Shown in pieces: positions 24,782 through 31,824 of a stretch of DNA of 34,347 nt. The position numbers were made by a program, and so were the translations under genes. The stretch is from contig SKZY01000475.1 in NCBI GenBank assembly GCA_007127095.1, positions 1-34,347 on the forward strand, in the 5' to 3' direction. Numbering within the stretch: the stretch's first letter is position 1; every line of letters begins with the position of its first letter. The notes below the pieces were generated by a model. It was not told where the DNA came from. It made no database searches and saw only the letters and a program-made list of their open reading frames with translations. The DNA comes from Planctomycetaceae bacterium (GTDB taxonomy: Bacteria > Planctomycetota > Planctomycetia > Pirellulales > Pirellulaceae).

Positions 24782-26362
24782 TCAATCGCGAAACGCGTCT
24801 CGCCACCTCCGCTCAACCGCAAACAGATCGTTCAATACCGCGTCGACCTCGTGCTGCTCGTAAGGGTCATGTTCCAACTCGTGTTCGAGCAGTTCGAGTT
24901 TCTTGCGGAGCAGATAGCCCTGCATCCGCTGGTAGGGGCGGACTTCTCCACGACGCAAGAACGTCCCGACCTCGAGCCGGCGACTCCAATCTTCGATCTG
25001 CTCGACCCAATGCAATGCCTGGTCGACGTTGCCCGTCCGCGCCGCCGAATAGGCTTCGCCGCGAGCCACCGAAATCTCCTCCAAACAGACTTTCGCCGGC
25101 GGGTAATAGGCGAAACAGCCGACCACACTGACCGCAATCAATCCGACCAACAAAGTCCCACCGAGTACCGACGGAGGTACCAAACGATCATAGCTCGCCA
25201 GTTCGGCGGCTTGAGCAGAACGGAATCGCGATTCATCGATCCCGAACTTCCTGAATGTCAGTCCGGTCGCCGCGACCAATGCCAACATGCCGAAACCGAT
25301 CATCTCGAACAGTTGGAACGGACGCATCGCGGCCGCCCAGATCGCCTCAACGCTGAGTGCCGTCTGTGGTGCAAACGGAGTGGCATAATTGTCGAACGCA
25401 TGGGTATGACCGGCCGGCTCGGCCCCAGGCAAGATCAGCGGCCGGTCGATCGCGTAAGCGGCCAACAAAACGATCGTCACCAACGAGATGAACCAGATCG
25501 AAATCGCTCGCCGGCCATAGCGACCGACGAACCAAACCAACGTCGCCAGGTTCATCCCCGCGCCGAGCAACAACAGCGAGAGGGCGGCACCCGGCGAATT
25601 GGAATGAACAAACATCATCCCCAATTGACTCATCGCTGTCATCGGCGTGGCGTAAACCGGGATCGCCAAGAACGTCATCCGCGCCGGGGCCCAGTGGTCG
25701 TGCATCTCGAACGAAGATTGCAGCGCCGCGTAGGGCAATAGGGCTCCGAGTATGCCGAGCCCGGCCGCCGCGATCAGCGTCAAACGGCCGGTGTCGCCGA
25801 CCAGGTCGCGGGCGGCGAATACCGCCAAAGCCAACATCCGTCGCAACCCGATGATTCGCAATCCCTCGCCGCTCTGCTGCTCGTGATCATGCCCCGCAAC
25901 GTCACTGCTTTCTCGGTCAGCAACCGCGCCGTCGGACTCCACCGACCGTGACGAAAAGCGGTCCCAGATCATCCCCAGAACGGTCACCAATACCAGCGAC
26001 GCGAGCGCGAAACAGATGATCACGATCGGCCGCGAAAGCGTCAGTCCGTAGAGCAGCGATAACGGATTGAACAGCGGCGCCGATAACGCGAAGGCGGTCA
26101 TCGCTCCCGGTCGAACCTTGGCCCGATAGAGTTCTGCCAAAATCGGCAAGACGCCGATCGAACAAACCGGCAACAACATTCCGATCAACCACGATTGCGG
26201 TAGCGAACGGATCGATTCGCCGCCAAACAATCGCCGCGTATCAGCGGCACCCAAGTAATAGCGCAACACCCCAGCGATGAACAAGCCGACCAACAGCGTC
26301 GGAGCACTCATCACCAACGCCTGAAACATCCGCACCAATCCGGAAACCAACATCAAGCTCAT
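24782..26362 (-). CDS. ArsP/DUF318-type permease with C-terminal helical extension
   Basis: 526 aa. Two clusters of membrane helices resemble the predicted permease family PF03773 (ArsP_1, YraQ type): LLVGLFIAGVLRYYLG, GMLLPVCSIGVLPILAELYRAK, AFALSAPLFNPLSLLYGL in the first half, and SQLGMMFVHSNSPGAALSLLLLGAGMNLATL in the second. The family usually has two Cys and a Gly in the PxCSCG motif; here it reads PVCSIG, so the second Cys is missing. The helix clusters are separated by a polar loop with His (GHDHEQQ). The final 110 residues are a soluble helical domain rich in Glu, Arg and Leu. Known members export organoarsenicals or are uncharacterised; the substrate here is unknown. Last gene of the five-gene operon; its ATG overlaps the lipoprotein stop as ATGA. 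Confidence 0.85.
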   Translation of the reverse strand: MSLMLVSGLVRMFQALVMSAPTLLVGLFIAGVLRYYLGAADTRRLFGGESIRSLPQSWLIGMLLPVCSIGVLPILAELYRAKVRPGAMTAFALSAPLFNPLSLLYGLTLSRPIVIICFALASLVLVTVLGMIWDRFSSRSVESDGAVADRESSDVAGHDHEQQSGEGLRIIGLRRMLALAVFAARDLVGDTGRLTLIAAAGLGILGALLPYAALQSSFEMHDHWAPARMTFLAIPVYATPMTAMSQLGMMFVHSNSPGAALSLLLLGAGMNLATLVWFVGRYGRRAISIWFISLVTIVLLAAYAIDRPLILPGAEPAGHTHAFDNYATPFAPQTALSVEAIWAAAMRPFQLFEMIGFGMLALVAATGLTFRKFGIDESRFRSAQAAELASYDRLVPPSVLGGTLLVGLIAVSVVGCFAYYPPAKVCLEEISVARGEAYSAARTGNVDQALHWVEQIEDWSRRLEVGTFLRRGEVRPYQRMQGYLLRKKLELLEHELEHDPYEQHEVDAVLNDLFAVERRWRDAFRD

Positions 26363-27075
26363 CGGGAACCCTCCCCGATTGGGTCAACGAGCTCGCTTTC
26401 AACCGTCGGTTCCTCGCCGTCAACCGTCGGTTCGGAATCGGGCTCCGAATCGCTCGGAGGCGCATCCCCCGCAATATCGTCGCCCAACAGATTCGCCCGT
26501 TCTCTTAACAGTTCGCAGTAACGGTCCAACTCCGCCAAGGTCGCGGGGTCGAGCTTCGCCCCGCCCTGACGTAGCCGCCGCGACAACGATTCGCTCGCCA
26601 CATGAATCGGAATCCACTGCTCCTCGGTCAAGTCGGTGTCCGCCGCGATTTCGGGGACCCAGCCGACGATGTCTCGCAATTCGCTCAAGACGATCGTCGG
26701 CGAACGTTTCTCGATCGCGACGTCGTCAAGGCCGGTTTCACTTAGCGCCGCTGCACGATCCCGCAGTTTGTCCGCCGCATCGACCAGGTCGGCTGGCCAG
26801 TGCTCGGGGACAAAATGCTCGGCGACAGGAGCATCGCCTGCGGTACCCGAACAACCGCCGCTCAACACCAACCCGCAAACCAACAGCACGGTCAGAAAAG
26901 GGGTCAGGCCTCTTTTGCGAGGGTCAGAAAAGGGGTCAGGCCTCTTTTGCGGGTCAGGGGTCAGAAAAGGGGTCAGGCCTCTTTTGTGCGCAGCACCCGA
27001 AGGGCGAGTTCCTCGCAAAAGAGGCCTGACCCCTTTTCTGCACCCTTTTCTGCGGCTCTTTGCGATCGACATCAT
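26359..27075 (-). CDS. Lipoprotein with a repeat-encoded N-terminal insertion
   Basis: 238 aa from ATG at 27075, chosen because it overlaps the MoxR stop as ATGA. After MMSIAKSRRKG the frame runs straight through the repeat array (26893-27040), giving a basic, Pro-rich stretch of about 45 residues. Only then comes a lipoprotein signal (VLLVCGLVLSGGC, lipobox LSGGC). The mature part is helical and soluble: a region of LRDRAAALSETG, SELRDIVGWVPEIAADTDLTEE and LDRYCELLRERAN, then an acidic Pro/Glu-rich tail. No family recognised. An alternative start is the GTG directly before LLVCG, but it has no Shine-Dalgarno and no positive residues, so the coupled ATG seems better. The mature part probably faces the periplasm, next to the permease encoded immediately downstream. 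Confidence 0.78.
   Translation of the reverse strand: MMSIAKSRRKGCRKGVRPLLRGTRPSGAAHKRGLTPFLTPDPQKRPDPFSDPRKRGLTPFLTVLLVCGLVLSGGCSGTAGDAPVAEHFVPEHWPADLVDAADKLRDRAAALSETGLDDVAIEKRSPTIVLSELRDIVGWVPEIAADTDLTEEQWIPIHVASESLSRRLRQGGAKLDPATLAELDRYCELLRERANLLGDDIAGDAPPSDSEPDSEPTVDGEEPTVESELVDPIGEGSR
26893..27040 (+). repeat. Compound REP-like array: three direct and one inverted 25-bp arms
   Basis: Identical 25-bp arms, beginning CAGAAAAGGGGTCAGGCC, occur at 26893-26917, 26925-26949 and 26962-26986. The exact reverse complement is at 27016-27040, so the last pair can form a perfect 25-bp stem. Its 29-nt loop contains GCACCCGAAGGGCGAG, the same loop core as copies 1 and 3. Part of another arm follows at 27043-27052. 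The array lies wholly inside the lipoprotein reading frame. Confidence 0.95.
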
Positions 27076-28088
27076 GTTCGATAATCCGGTACGGGAGTGT
27101 CGTTCAACAAGCTTTCGACCACCGCGGTTTCGGTTCCCGTCCGCATCACCAAGCGGACCGCTAGGACGTGCGGGGCGACGTCCTGAATATCTTGCGGCGT
27201 GACGAAATCCCGGCCATCGAGAAACGCCCAGGCCTGCGCGACACGCTGCCAAGACAGCATCCCGCGAGGGCTGACGCCCAATTCGATCGATTCATGCCGT
27301 CGCGTCGCCTCGACCAAATCGACCAGATACCCCTGGACCGCCGGATGGACCGTCACGGCCGCGACCCGACGCTGCAGGTTGCGGAGATCCTCGATCGACA
27401 GCCGATCGGTCTCGGTGGCGACCGGTTCGCCTTCACCCACAGGCTGAGCGAGCATGGCCAGTTGGGCCTCGCGATCGGGGTAACCGATTTCTAGCCGCAT
27501 CGCGAAGCGGTCAAGCTGCGCCTCGGGCAACGGGTACGCGCCGTGGCTGTCGATCGGGTTCTGGGTCGCGATCACAAAAAAAGTGTCGACCAGGCGATGG
27601 GGCACCGCGTCGATCGTCACCTGCCGCTCCGCCATCGCTTCTAGCAACGCACTCTGAGTTCGCGGCGTGGTGCGATTGATTTCGTCAGCTAACAAAATGT
27701 CAGAGAAGACCGGACCGGGGTGAAACTCAAACTCGCGAGTCTTCTGGTTGAACAGGTTGAACCCGGTGATGTCGGTTGGCAACAGATCCGGCGTACACTG
27801 CAAGCGGCCGAACCGGCCGCTCAAACAAGCCGCTAACGTCTTGGCCAACGTCGTCTTGCCGGTACCGGGCAGGTCGTCGAGCAACAGGTGGCCGTGGGCG
27901 AGCAAGCAGGCCAACACCAATTCGATTTGCCGTCGCTTGCCCAACAATACCCCGTTGAGCCGATCACGGAGACTATCGAGCTGGCGTTTGGCCGTGGTGG
28001 AAGTCGGCGTGATCGTCGAAGTCGTCATCATCGAAGTTGTCATAGTCAAATGTGTCGCTGTCGGAGTCGTCAAAACCGGTGTCGTCAT
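27072..28088 (-). CDS. moxR: MoxR-family AAA+ ATPase
   Basis: 338 aa. Residues 1-34 are an unusual Thr/Met-rich stretch, about half Thr; Met16, 20 or 21 are possible later starts. From residue 36 the chain is a typical MoxR ATPase: LGKRRQIELVLACLLAHGHLLLDD split before Walker A LPGTGKTT (73-80), the CTPDLLPTDITG loop, Walker B ILLADEINR (131-139), sensor FVIATQNPID, and the arginine-finger region EAQLDRFAMRLEIGYP. GVSPRGMLSWQRVAQAWAFLDGRDFVTPQDI marks the C-terminal lid. MoxR proteins act as chaperone-like ATPases, often with a DUF58/von Willebrand-type partner, encoded two genes upstream here. It starts 3 bp after the stop of the transglutaminase-like gene, and its stop overlaps the lipoprotein ATG. 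Confidence 0.95.
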   Translation of the reverse strand: MTTPVLTTPTATHLTMTTSMMTTSTITPTSTTAKRQLDSLRDRLNGVLLGKRRQIELVLACLLAHGHLLLDDLPGTGKTTLAKTLAACLSGRFGRLQCTPDLLPTDITGFNLFNQKTREFEFHPGPVFSDILLADEINRTTPRTQSALLEAMAERQVTIDAVPHRLVDTFFVIATQNPIDSHGAYPLPEAQLDRFAMRLEIGYPDREAQLAMLAQPVGEGEPVATETDRLSIEDLRNLQRRVAAVTVHPAVQGYLVDLVEATRRHESIELGVSPRGMLSWQRVAQAWAFLDGRDFVTPQDIQDVAPHVLAVRLVMRTGTETAVVESLLNDTPVPDYRT

Positions 28089-28091
28089 CGG

Positions 28092-30551
28092 TTACCGATC
28101 CTTCGTTCGGTTGTGGGCAGCGGGCGACGCGACAGGCTGCCGGTCGCGACTTTGGATCAACAGTCCGACCCTTACCCCGGTCGCGACCCGGTCGGCGTCG
28201 CCTAACCAGTTCGCCGAGGCGATCTCGCCGGGCCCAAAAAACACAGCGTCGGCGAGATCAAAAAAACGCTCTGCCGAAGCGGCAAGCGAACCGTCGACCG
28301 CCCGGACCGTTCGCTCGATCCAATCCCGCGGCGTCATCCCGACCGGACGTCGGACGCCCGCCAGGCGACCGCGAATATCGAGCAACCGGACCAACAAGGC
28401 CACCCGCCGACGCGCGGCGAGCGGCCATGACAACCGCCACGCCAAGCGACAAGCCCATTCGCCCCAGCGACACCGCGACCACCAGAGTACGGCGACCGCC
28501 AACAAGGCCGCCAGCAACGTCGGTGTGGCCGCCTTGACCGCCGCCAACGCCCGCTGTGAGGCCGATTCGTAAAAGACCGGCAATGCATAGCCCGGCGTCG
28601 GCTCGATCGCCATCCAAAGGTCCTCGGCCACCAACACCTCCGCCCAAACGTGAGCGTCATCGGCCAGCACATCGACATGCCCCGCCAACCAATCACGCCC
28701 CCTTGGCGGCGTATAAAACCCCGTCACCAAACGCGACTCGATTCCCAACGAACGGAGCATCACGGCGGCCGCGGTAGCGAACAAGTGGTCACCGCCACGC
28801 CGACGGTCGAGAAAATCGGCCAGCGGATCGTCGCTGTCACTCGCCGTCGTACGATCGAACACGAAACCTTCGCGGAGACGTGCTACCACCCGCTCCACCC
28901 GCTCGTAGTCCGACTCCAGCCCCGCTGTCCAACGCCGAGCCAACCGGGCTGCTGCCTCCTTACCCTCAAAATCGGGTTCGGCTGACCGATCATTCAGCGC
29001 CCGCGGCATCGTCTCGACCGCTCGCAGTTCCCCAGCAACGAAGCGACGCGTCAACAACCGTACCACCGTCAATTCCGGGATCCGACTGCGCCCCGGCATG
29101 AACCAGGCGTCATCCGCCGTGATCCCGAAGAAGTCGTCGCGATCGACGTCGGCGACATGCACGGCCGCGGTTCCGACGGGCGCCGGCACCCGGGGCGACT
29201 GCAGATTGATGATCTTGACCGCATCGCCGCGGTAAGGACCGAGCAGCGACGAGGCAAACGGGGCGCCGGCCGGCAACGTCAATACCGCCGGTTTTCGCCT
29301 GAAAAACCAGACCCGATCCGCGATCTCCTGACGCCTCAGCCGATCGTTCTGCCCCGGCGATCGCCCGTCGATCGCGTCACCACCATCCAGCGATTCGTCT
29401 CGTGTCCAATCGAGACCATCGAATCGATCGAACCGCTCCAACGCCAAACGGACCCCCGTCGGTCCCACCCACTGCAGCAATGCCGGCGAGGTCGCCTGAC
29501 GTGGCTTCGACGACGTCTGGTCGGGTCGACGCGCGAGCGAAAAACCGGCATCTCCCCGCTGCGAACGGGTCGTCCGTGGCCGGTCGCGACTCTGCTGGCG
29601 GTTGGCCAGCGCGATCGCCCGCTCCGTCCGACGCACCTTATTGGGACGCCCCAACACATCGTCGAAAACGTCGTACAAACTCGGTTGGTGAGACTGCAAA
29701 AAGATCTCCGACTCGACGGCCCCAAAGGATGCGGCATGTCCTTTGGCCGCCACCACCGCATCGCCATCACCGACACCCGAACGCGCGGTCGGATCATTCC
29801 ATTTCGTACCGCCACTGGTCGGCATCACCCCCCATGAAAGCAGTCGCGTCGCCGGACCGCGGCCCCAACTGGCCAAAAACGCGATCCCGCAAATCACCAT
29901 GCCGAGCGCGGTCATCCCCAGTCGCACCCCGTGATGCCGCCGCACCGAGTCGGCCAAATGAACCTCGATCCGCTCCCAGTGATTTGCCAGCAACCACCAC
30001 AAGCAGAGCAGTACCCAAACGCCCGCCAGTACCAACGTGTCGCCACGATCGCTGATCGAGGTCGCGAAGAGCGTCAAGAATCCACTGCATATGACCGACA
30101 ACGACGCCTGACGAGTAGCGACGCTACAGACCGCCAAGACGACCGCACCGATCCCCAAAGTCGATAACAGCACCATTTCCCAGGCCGCCGCAGTGCCGCC
30201 CAGCGGGGTGAGCAAGAGCCGACCACAAAGCGGAATCAGGAGTGCGCTGATCACGAAAAAGCGGCCCGATCGCCGCGCGATCCGACCGTTGCCTGGCGCG
30301 AAACGATCGAGCAAAACTCCGATCGATACCCAGAGTGAGACGAACACCAACTCGGCCTGAACCACGAACGCCGACTGCCCACCGATGCGCACACCCGCCA
30401 ACGCAAATAACGCAACGACCGCCATCACCACGGCACCGCGACGGCGGCGGTCTCGCAGACTCGACCACAGCCCGCCAGACGAAACTTCCCCGTCGGTCGA
30501 TCGGGGCGTGGCAGCGAGAAACTCCGGCTGATCAAGCCGCGGCGTCAACAT
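28092..30551 (-). CDS. Transglutaminase-like membrane protein (TgpA/DUF3488 type) lacking the catalytic Cys
   Basis: 819 aa from ATG at 30551, chosen for AGAGG 6 nt upstream; the frame continues back to a TTG at 30644, inside the DUF58 gene. Residues about 45-260 contain six or seven membrane helices. A large periplasmic part follows, with a transglutaminase core near 580-660, then one more helix (about 668-690) and a cytoplasmic tail with a DUF4129-like stretch. The core reads RRGGDHLFATAAAVMLRSLG, where active relatives have RRGxCEHFA: Asp588 replaces the catalytic Cys. His634 is kept (DDAHVWAEV), and the Asp of the DPT motif is Glu650 (IEPTPGY). It is therefore predicted to be inactive as a peptidase or transglutaminase, unless another residue substitutes. 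It overlaps the DUF58 gene by 20 bp and is followed by moxR. Confidence 0.88.
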   Translation of the reverse strand: MLTPRLDQPEFLAATPRSTDGEVSSGGLWSSLRDRRRRGAVVMAVVALFALAGVRIGGQSAFVVQAELVFVSLWVSIGVLLDRFAPGNGRIARRSGRFFVISALLIPLCGRLLLTPLGGTAAAWEMVLLSTLGIGAVVLAVCSVATRQASLSVICSGFLTLFATSISDRGDTLVLAGVWVLLCLWWLLANHWERIEVHLADSVRRHHGVRLGMTALGMVICGIAFLASWGRGPATRLLSWGVMPTSGGTKWNDPTARSGVGDGDAVVAAKGHAASFGAVESEIFLQSHQPSLYDVFDDVLGRPNKVRRTERAIALANRQQSRDRPRTTRSQRGDAGFSLARRPDQTSSKPRQATSPALLQWVGPTGVRLALERFDRFDGLDWTRDESLDGGDAIDGRSPGQNDRLRRQEIADRVWFFRRKPAVLTLPAGAPFASSLLGPYRGDAVKIINLQSPRVPAPVGTAAVHVADVDRDDFFGITADDAWFMPGRSRIPELTVVRLLTRRFVAGELRAVETMPRALNDRSAEPDFEGKEAAARLARRWTAGLESDYERVERVVARLREGFVFDRTTASDSDDPLADFLDRRRGGDHLFATAAAVMLRSLGIESRLVTGFYTPPRGRDWLAGHVDVLADDAHVWAEVLVAEDLWMAIEPTPGYALPVFYESASQRALAAVKAATPTLLAALLAVAVLWWSRCRWGEWACRLAWRLSWPLAARRRVALLVRLLDIRGRLAGVRRPVGMTPRDWIERTVRAVDGSLAASAERFFDLADAVFFGPGEIASANWLGDADRVATGVRVGLLIQSRDRQPVASPAAHNRTKDR

Positions 30552-31824
30552 GCCGAACCTCTCGCCAAAATCGTGATAAAGCGATCCCCAGCGGTGCTTC
30601 CGCCAAAATCGTGAAGTCGCCGGAATCAGCCAATAACCCCTCAACGGACGGAACTATGGCGGATCGACGCGACTCCCGTAGCCGACTGCTGCGAGGCGAA
30701 TCGACCTGAACCCGAACCGCGCCAGCCGACGCCGACGACCCCGATATCCGGACCGTCGTCCGCGACCGTGAGCCGAGTGACGATTCGTTCTTCATCGTGT
30801 CAAAACATCCGTCGATCGGCACCTCCATCAAGGCCGTCAACAACTTTCGCCGTCCCGACGCGCCGGGGGCAAACGACAACTGGTCGCGCCCGATCACCAA
30901 TCGCAACGGCAGGTGACGGGCATGCAACGCCACCGCCACACTGGCGGCAACACGAACCCGACGAGCCAACGCCTCGCGATGGCAATCACGGTCGACTGGG
31001 GTCCAGGAATAGGGGAGGCTGGTGTCGAGCTCGATGGCGATCTCAGGACGCTGCGGACCGCCACGCTCGCAAACCGTCAAGTTGCCGGTACGGGCGGTAT
31101 GGATCCAATGGACATTCCTGAGCCGATCGCCGCTGCGAAACGCTCGCACCCCCAACGGCTCACCCGACTCGCCGGTTCGCAATCCGTCACCACTTTCGCT
31201 TCGCACGCCACTCGCCAATTCGGGATCGTCCTGAACCCGACTGACCTCGGGAAACACGACCAAAGGAGCACATTCGGCCAACCGCCGACGAGCCGTCCAA
31301 AGCCCGAACGGCATCGAACAGCTGACCGACGGCGGTTCCTCGGGATAGCGTCCGCGGAGCTTCGGGGCGACCCGCAATCGATACTCGGCATCGCTGCACG
31401 GCGGCACGCACGCCAATGCGATCGAAGGCTTGACGTCATCGCCTCGACGATCGAGATACCCCTCGACCGAAATCCCCCACAACGGGATCGGAAAACGATT
31501 CGCAACCACCAAAATCAGGTCGCAGCTCTGACCTTCGTGAAGCTCCGGTACCGACGGCCGCAGTCGACAGCGGGCAGCCCGGACAACGCACCATGGCCAA
31601 ACCATCCCGGCCACGATCACGGCGAAAATCATGCTCGCCAATACCCAACCGACCGAACTGACGTACAACCCGACCAGCAGACTGATCGCTAATGCCGCGA
31701 CGAACCAACCGATCGGCTCCTTCAACCAATAGACATATCGATTCGCCCAAGGACAAAAGTCGATGACCAACAAATCGGCCCAACCGGGCTGCGCCCGGTC
31801 AGCGCCTCGAGCTAAAAACGGCAT
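30532..31824 (-). CDS. DUF58-domain membrane protein
   Basis: 430 aa. Two adjacent membrane helices (about residues 38-80) are followed by a beta-rich region (LHEGQSCDLILVVANRFPIPLWGISVEG, split by turns). Then comes the DUF58 signature GVRAFRSGDRLRNVHW, with TARTGNLTVCE directly after, near residues 224-250. The following part is von Willebrand A-like (IAIELDTSLPYS, keeping DxS of the metal site). DUF58 proteins are regularly encoded with MoxR ATPases and transglutaminase-like membrane proteins and are thought to work as one complex at the membrane, role unproven. First gene of the five-gene operon. The 196-bp divergent gap to the helicase gene should carry its promoter. Its 3' end overlaps the next start by 20 bp. 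Confidence 0.92.
   Translation of the reverse strand: MPFLARGADRAQPGWADLLVIDFCPWANRYVYWLKEPIGWFVAALAISLLVGLYVSSVGWVLASMIFAVIVAGMVWPWCVVRAARCRLRPSVPELHEGQSCDLILVVANRFPIPLWGISVEGYLDRRGDDVKPSIALACVPPCSDAEYRLRVAPKLRGRYPEEPPSVSCSMPFGLWTARRRLAECAPLVVFPEVSRVQDDPELASGVRSESGDGLRTGESGEPLGVRAFRSGDRLRNVHWIHTARTGNLTVCERGGPQRPEIAIELDTSLPYSWTPVDRDCHREALARRVRVAASVAVALHARHLPLRLVIGRDQLSFAPGASGRRKLLTALMEVPIDGCFDTMKNESSLGSRSRTTVRISGSSASAGAVRVQVDSPRSSRLRESRRSAIVPSVEGLLADSGDFTILAEAPLGIALSRFWREVRHVDAAA

Follow-up and report, generated by a model that had tools for sequence, protein, structure and literature searches.

The DNA analysed here, hereafter the window, is the stretch of 34,347 nucleotides that makes up positions 1 to 34,347 of contig SKZY01000475.1 of a Planctomycetaceae bacterium (assembly GCA_007127095.1). 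Five successive genes on its minus strand, in the order DUF58 protein, Cys-less transglutaminase-like protein, MoxR ATPase, lipoprotein and ArsP_1 permease, form the operon considered below. The first-pass annotation had put the transglutaminase-like gene inside a MoxR/DUF58 operon, which was correct as far as it went; it lacked this gene order, the lipoprotein and permease genes which follow, and the ordinary operon of the same type that lies elsewhere in the genome.

30532–31824, minus strand: DUF58 protein, first gene of the operon, divergent (18.6 bits, below the Pfam cut-off of 23.4)
28092–30551, minus strand: transglutaminase-like membrane protein without the Cys, 819 residues when translated from the Met at 30551
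27072–28088, minus strand: MoxR AAA+ ATPase, Walker A and B stretches kept
26359–26853, minus strand: mature part of a small lipoprotein, signal peptide upstream, start codon uncertain
24782–26362, minus strand: ArsP_1 (PF03773) permease by Pfam match, with a conserved C-terminal tail

The longest frame of the transglutaminase-like gene extends over 28092–30644 of the minus strand, with a TTG start at 30644, while its start is most plausibly the Met at 30551. Transglut_core is the sole Pfam domain of the product (73.3 bits, the cut-off being 23), and NCBIfam assigns no family to this protein or to the DUF58 protein. About seven separate hydrophobic segments lie before residue 228 and one at 671–689, with none between; based upon this hydrophobicity and the likeness to TgpA the middle part is presumably periplasmic, with membrane helices, present also in the predicted model, on both sides as in TgpA-type proteins, their sidedness being likewise presumed. 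The parts and residues on which the analysis turns are the following.

29025–29837, minus strand: N-terminal periplasmic part of the protein, the basis of the triad-blind sampling
28599–28946, minus strand: Transglut_core domain (PF01841, Pfam), residues 536–651
28776–28796, minus strand: GGDHLFA motif, read from alignment rows
28788–28790, minus strand: codon GAC of Asp588, the nucleophile position (numbered from the Met at 30551; TgpA alignments)
28650–28652, minus strand: codon of His634; His in 101 of the 101 orthologues having that position
28602–28604, minus strand: codon of Glu650; Glu in 99 and Asp in 2 of 101 orthologues

A recount from the Met at 30551 returned exactly the three triad codons, and the range 28602–28790, that had been proposed from the sequence. 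With phmmer (limit of 1) the sole match of the protein among the PDB sequences was TgpA of Pseudomonas aeruginosa (6g49, E 1e-5); the same entry was matched at E 4.5e-10 by a profile built from 25 orthologues. The single-protein and the family-profile alignments agree in register: Asp588 stands opposite the Cys of RSGFCAHYA, His634 opposite the His of DAHAW and Glu650 opposite the Asp of VDPT. Asp thus occupies the place where active TgpA-type proteins have Cys, as the first-pass annotation had claimed. The cysteines of the protein are residues 109, 142, 155, 183, 221, 694 and 701, which sit within or next to the membrane segments or else in the C-terminal region, with none across 222–693; these positions leave no substitute Cys for the role of nucleophile, an alternative which the same annotation had named as fatal to its proposal.

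A structure prediction, which had been suggested as a check, points the same way. The AlphaFold2 model (alignment of 91 family sequences, from which the short L016 and near-copies above 85 percent had been removed) has a mean pLDDT of 81, mostly above 90 across the transglutaminase domain. In the model Asp588 is the first residue of helix 588–601, His634 lies in strand 633–642 and Glu650 just after strand 645–649, a placement that corresponds, as predicted, to the arrangement of a transglutaminase core. The top match by Foldseek and VIA-align was the TgpA periplasmic domain (6g4h, E 9.4e-11). Against 6g49 the model gave Z 20.4 and an rmsd of 3.5 over 253 residues, so that the predicted fold is transglutaminase/papain-like; since the match spans model residues 289–657, the region ahead of the transglutaminase domain is also common to TgpA. 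Judged as a catalytic TgpA-type site, the protein has the His and an acidic third residue and lacks the Cys nucleophile.

Orthologues were collected in two ways. A whole-protein search of 60 genomes, the window's own included, gave 26 clear orthologues (own included), none with Cys at the nucleophile position; all four other genomes of the same genus that were searched (L010, L011, L012 and L016) carry Asp there, contrary to the sequencing error that orthologues uniformly bearing Cys would have indicated. To sample blind to the triad, a profile of the N-terminal periplasmic part alone was used. It matched 71 loci in a genome collection, their record titles naming planctomycete groups apart from two reading only "bacterium"; since the collection scan works through a single peptide pattern, this count does not demonstrate absence outside the groups found. 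Among 392 genomes of the phylum it matched 24, one of them weakly, and the other 23 belong to the window's family or to one other family of the same class.

The 133 loci assembled were reduced to 121 with the N-terminal part at E 1e-5 and to 119 with the transglutaminase domain in the same frame; 17 of these were duplicates, whose removal left 102 distinct orthologues, 26 from the domain and whole-protein searches (not blind) and 76 from the blind searches only. Two loci (L085 and L107) were left out as their sequence ends ahead of the transglutaminase domain, and a third (L133) as a weak partial match (E 3e-4) under the threshold. One further sequence (L074) ends ahead of the His and Glu, and these positions were therefore scored in 101 orthologues and not in 102.

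At the nucleophile position the 102 orthologues have Asp (83), Ser (7), Ala (7), Glu (3), Asn (1) and Arg (1) and in no case Cys, although, as a change from Asp to Cys takes two base changes, the absence of Cys is by itself weak evidence. The third triad residue is Asp in L131 and L088, the former having also Ala at the nucleophile position. As read from the alignment rows, the family motif around the nucleophile is mostly G-[PG]-D-[YH]-[LM]-F-A, while in the majority of the Cys-type TgpA paralogues it is G-[HN]-C-[EQ]-x-[FY]-A; the motif of the Cys-less family is rebuilt relative to that of Cys-type TgpA. Transglut_core was matched by all 25 members of the 25-sequence alignment (E 0.001 or better), though the Cys that a thiol enzyme would need is missing from every one of them, and such a match should be taken as a warning in annotation.

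As controls we chose, from the match lists, other Transglut_core proteins of the window's genome and of neighbouring genomes; together with 40 large frames they are a sample and not all such proteins of those genomes. Cys was found at the nucleophile position in 79 of 79 aligned rows (68 of 68 distinct proteins), as against none in the 102 orthologues, and the His in 68 of 68. The weakest match in the window's own genome (L008) fell under the alignment threshold and is outside the 68; its weak alignment also appears to show Cys. The third residue of the 68 was Asp in 60, Glu in 5, Gln in 2 and Arg in 1. Because five Cys-bearing controls also carry Glu there, Glu650 is no anomaly or defect in itself, and its reading as a second defect of the site is rejected.

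Among the 71 collection loci, DUF58 lies directly upstream in all 66 with 1.5 kb of room. In the 50 with 3.5 kb downstream, MoxR follows in 48 and the permease in 46, and the lipoprotein was detected in 36. Two loci (L072 and L073) have DUF58 and the Cys-less gene with no MoxR or permease in the available downstream sequence; two others (L058 and L094) have no permease downstream, making four of 50 without it. The 40 large-frame stretches of Cys type included 29 with DUF58 and 24 with MoxR, many being too short for all three genes; wherever all three were present, in the window's genome as elsewhere, the order was MoxR – DUF58 – TgpA. The window's genome also encodes a TgpA of the ordinary kind (L002), which has the Cys-His-Asp triad and is preceded by MoxR and DUF58 genes (L168). 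The Cys-less gene is likewise adjacent to MoxR and DUF58, in an order permuted relative to the paralogous operon, and its operon is a paralogue of the ordinary MoxR – DUF58 – TgpA operon persisting in the same genome.

A degenerate DUF58 in the Cys-less operon was considered and rejected, the stretches compared looking alike in both operons. The motif D-x-S-x-S, which is that of vWA domains, is not in the DUF58 consensus of either operon set. The lipoprotein of the window belongs to no Pfam family at E 0.01. In its own family the lipobox Cys is present in 44 of 44 aligned rows and an H-x-P motif is conserved (His in 42 of 44, Pro in 44 of 44); a His-containing stretch follows the lipid-bearing Cys. 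The predicted fold is a four-helix bundle whose best structural matches (Z about 10) are to various bundles and thus uninformative. The C-terminal tail of the permease (24782–25110; EDWSRRLEVG...YQRMQG...KLELLEHELEHDP) lies outside the Pfam match and is kept in the 14 rows compared. By eye it resembles the lipoprotein, a homology which hhalign rejected (probability 3.4 percent). Between MoxR and the lipoprotein (26890–27040) a palindrome-like repeat of 30 bases, which we take to resemble a REP-type element, is present four times, once in inverted orientation. A genome-wide count of its 21-base core, at no more than one mismatch, gave 30 occurrences, often as facing pairs, and none for the reversed control.

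A tree of 133 transglutaminase domains was built from 118 columns, with the nucleophile column excluded and the 102 orthologues reduced to 65 by thinning to 60 percent identity (L074 omitted). The 65 Cys-less rows form one side of a branch (SH-aLRT 99) with a stem of 1.54 changes per column, and they group with most of the TgpA-type rows, apart from the shorter families. Since every row outside the clade has Cys, a single loss of Cys on the stem is the simplest history. We infer the order of events, a duplication and a single loss, from a tree in which 68 of the 130 inner branches are drawn open. The observation is thereby widened from one odd protein to a whole Cys-less clade with its own conserved operon.

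Over 112 columns of the transglutaminase domain G611, H634, W636 and W646 are invariant and E650 ranks fifth, while D588 ranks only 28th. In 12 close pairs dN/dS was 0.08–0.22 for the whole gene and 0.04–0.32 for the transglutaminase domain. Ranks and ratios together indicate that the domain is under selection, the cleft more so than the seat of the nucleophile. The tree of the Cys-less proteins (785 columns) requires no fewer than 13 changes at position 588 between Asp and another residue (Ser, Ala, Glu, Asn or Arg), and 11 of them are forced by well-supported branches; the tree does not tell gain from loss at this position, where Asp is by far the commonest state. The proposal of a conserved pseudoenzyme or altered active site is borne out, with the balance on the side of the former given these changes at 588. 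We consider that the window's protein is a conserved pseudo-transglutaminase, which binds or regulates through an intact His/Glu/Trp pocket (probability about 0.65). Thiol chemistry is impossible at a site without Cys.

An invariant His and a near-invariant Glu are also what one would expect of an unusual enzyme, and this counts against reading the protein as a pseudoenzyme. The enzyme might, for instance, activate water by His634 and Glu650, leaving the nucleophile seat free to vary, and the contrast between 588 and the conserved His, Trp and Glu speaks for such a mechanism. We nevertheless regard this as unlikely on two indirect grounds: the portions of a survey of papain-like proteins at hand (PMC10318531) name several inactive members and no enzyme of this sort, and fungal Cyk3 is a case in which the remaining pair is of importance although the Cys is gone (PMC4758748).

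A second possibility, to which we give slightly less credit, is an altered but active site in which Asp588, His634 and Glu650 form a new nucleophile or a metal-binding trio. The predominance of Asp, which may be useful where it is present (83 of 102), the retention of His and an acid in all 101 proteins having these positions, and the predicted location of Asp in the exact seat of Cys would suit this proposal. The repeated changes at 588, however, imply that Asp is not required as a new nucleophile or metal ligand, as proteins with Ala (7), Ser (7), Glu (3), Asn (1) or Arg (1) keep, where the sequence extends so far, the His and the acid; the rank of the position is equally unfavourable.

One might also think of a conflict (defence) system centred on MoxR, which the protein would serve as decoy or effector in the way of the inactive enzyme domains of MoxR-vWA ternary systems. 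Such domains are described as a recurrent feature of these systems, and planctomycetes are among their hosts (PMC7159879); the MoxR of the window reaches 34.4 bits against the bpMoxR profile of Pfam, whose cut-off is 27. Its score on AAA_3 is far higher (200.9 bits), the transglutaminase-like gene is a fixed member of the operon and not a variable effector, and a PADLOC scan of the four operon proteins other than the lipoprotein yielded only two weak AAA matches, both to MoxR, so that these four proteins do not correspond to a known anti-phage system; we think this explanation very improbable. Lastly, the assembly that contains the window is a draft in 475 contigs, which might suggest an ordinary transglutaminase gene that is decaying, misread or misaligned; this explanation is refuted, as the first-pass annotation had held for decay, by the agreement of the genomes of the same genus, the single clade of 102 distinct proteins without Cys, the invariant His, Trp and Gly positions, the Cys-free stretch 222–693, the open frames, the purifying selection and two TgpA alignments in the same register.

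For the pseudo-transglutaminase we would propose the following course of events and mode of action. A MoxR-DUF58-TgpA operon may have been duplicated in a lineage ancestral to the window's family and to other families of its order and class of Planctomycetota, and the TgpA copy would have lost its Cys nucleophile once, to become fixed as a non-thiol protein. The protein is predicted to be anchored by about seven N-terminal membrane helices and one C-terminal helix, with the TgpA-like part in the periplasm. Conservation shows that the cleft is kept around the invariant His634, Trp636 and Trp646 and the nearly invariant Glu650, the nucleophile seat tolerating several residues, mostly Asp. We infer that this cleft most likely acts by binding alone: its ligand, a peptide, glycan or protein of the periplasm, would be neither cut nor cross-linked.

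Whether or not a ligand is bound might then be relayed through the membrane to the operon partners, the MoxR ATPase and DUF58; alternatively the domain may itself be worked on by the MoxR ATPase. The relay is suggested by the operon linkage and by the chaperone-like role described for MoxR-type ATPases as helpers of dedicated complexes, with VWA partners in metal insertion (PMC3893208, PMC13036017, PMC9976466). From gene order, the partner acted upon may be the downstream lipoprotein together with the ArsP_1-type permease. The link to the permease is presumably not absolute, since four of the 50 loci are without it, two of these being also without MoxR.

More tentatively, and with rather more doubt than belief, one could suppose a second planctomycete MoxR-DUF58-TgpA machine, in which a dead transglutaminase ectodomain senses a periplasmic ligand through the His/Glu/Trp cleft and, by way of MoxR, controls the ArsP_1-type permease and the His-bearing four-helix lipoprotein, possibly in the handling of metals or metalloids. 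If true, transport would here be under the control of an AAA+ ATPase, in a type of module absent from the open-licence PubMed Central literature searched; in the same literature neither this planctomycete family nor its loss of Cys is the subject of any title or opening of an abstract. A widely kept copy devoid of the chemistry, conserved beside a MoxR whose ATPase motifs are intact, suggests that some of what the machine does needs no catalysis, an idea made testable by natural variants at one site (Asp, Ser, Ala, Glu, Asn and Arg) and by a list of partners, the lipoprotein and the permease.

Among known systems, TgpA of P. aeruginosa (PA2873; 6g49, 6g4h) is likewise a membrane protein with a large periplasmic part, region 180–544 being predicted as periplasmic (PMC3507681), and has the same two-part periplasmic fold. 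It possesses the Cys-His-Asp triad and, according to the same source, shows transglutaminase activity in vitro, whereas the planctomycete protein has lost the Cys. Compared with the MoxR-DUF58-TgpA operon, the Cys-less operon is permuted and has lipoprotein and permease genes after it. In the PFNA operon of Bifidobacterium (pkb2, fn3, aaa-atp, duf58, tgm) MoxR, DUF58 and transglutaminase-like genes are likewise together (PMC8430577). This operon differs in its kinase and FN3 genes and in the order MoxR – DUF58 – transglutaminase, and the product of tgm is presumed in that source to be a cysteine protease (PMC8430577).

Loss of the Cys has parallels among papain-like proteins. The survey cited above (PMC10318531) lists as inactive menin (without Cys), EPB42, FBX21, PAN2, SNUT2 and XPC, some with scaffolding roles; a word search of its main text did not find the stem "planctomycet". 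The C39-like domain of the HlyB transporter is papain-like and inactive, has its Cys replaced (by Tyr) and sits on an ATPase-powered membrane machine (PMC8277102). As it belongs to peptidase family C39 and is part of an ABC transporter, the likeness is one of principle only.

Fungal Cyk3 similarly contains a transglutaminase-like domain without Cys in which the His and acid are conserved, the same combination of loss and retention as in the planctomycete family. Unlike the planctomycete protein, Cyk3 is a eukaryotic cytokinesis protein with an SH3 domain which acts on chitin synthase and has no MoxR partner. Its His/Asp double alanine mutant no longer stimulated primary septum formation and chitin synthesis, and still bound its partner (PMC4758748); the precedent therefore backs the need for the pair, and not a binding role for it. 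Cyk3 is the closest working precedent for a Cys-less transglutaminase-like domain.
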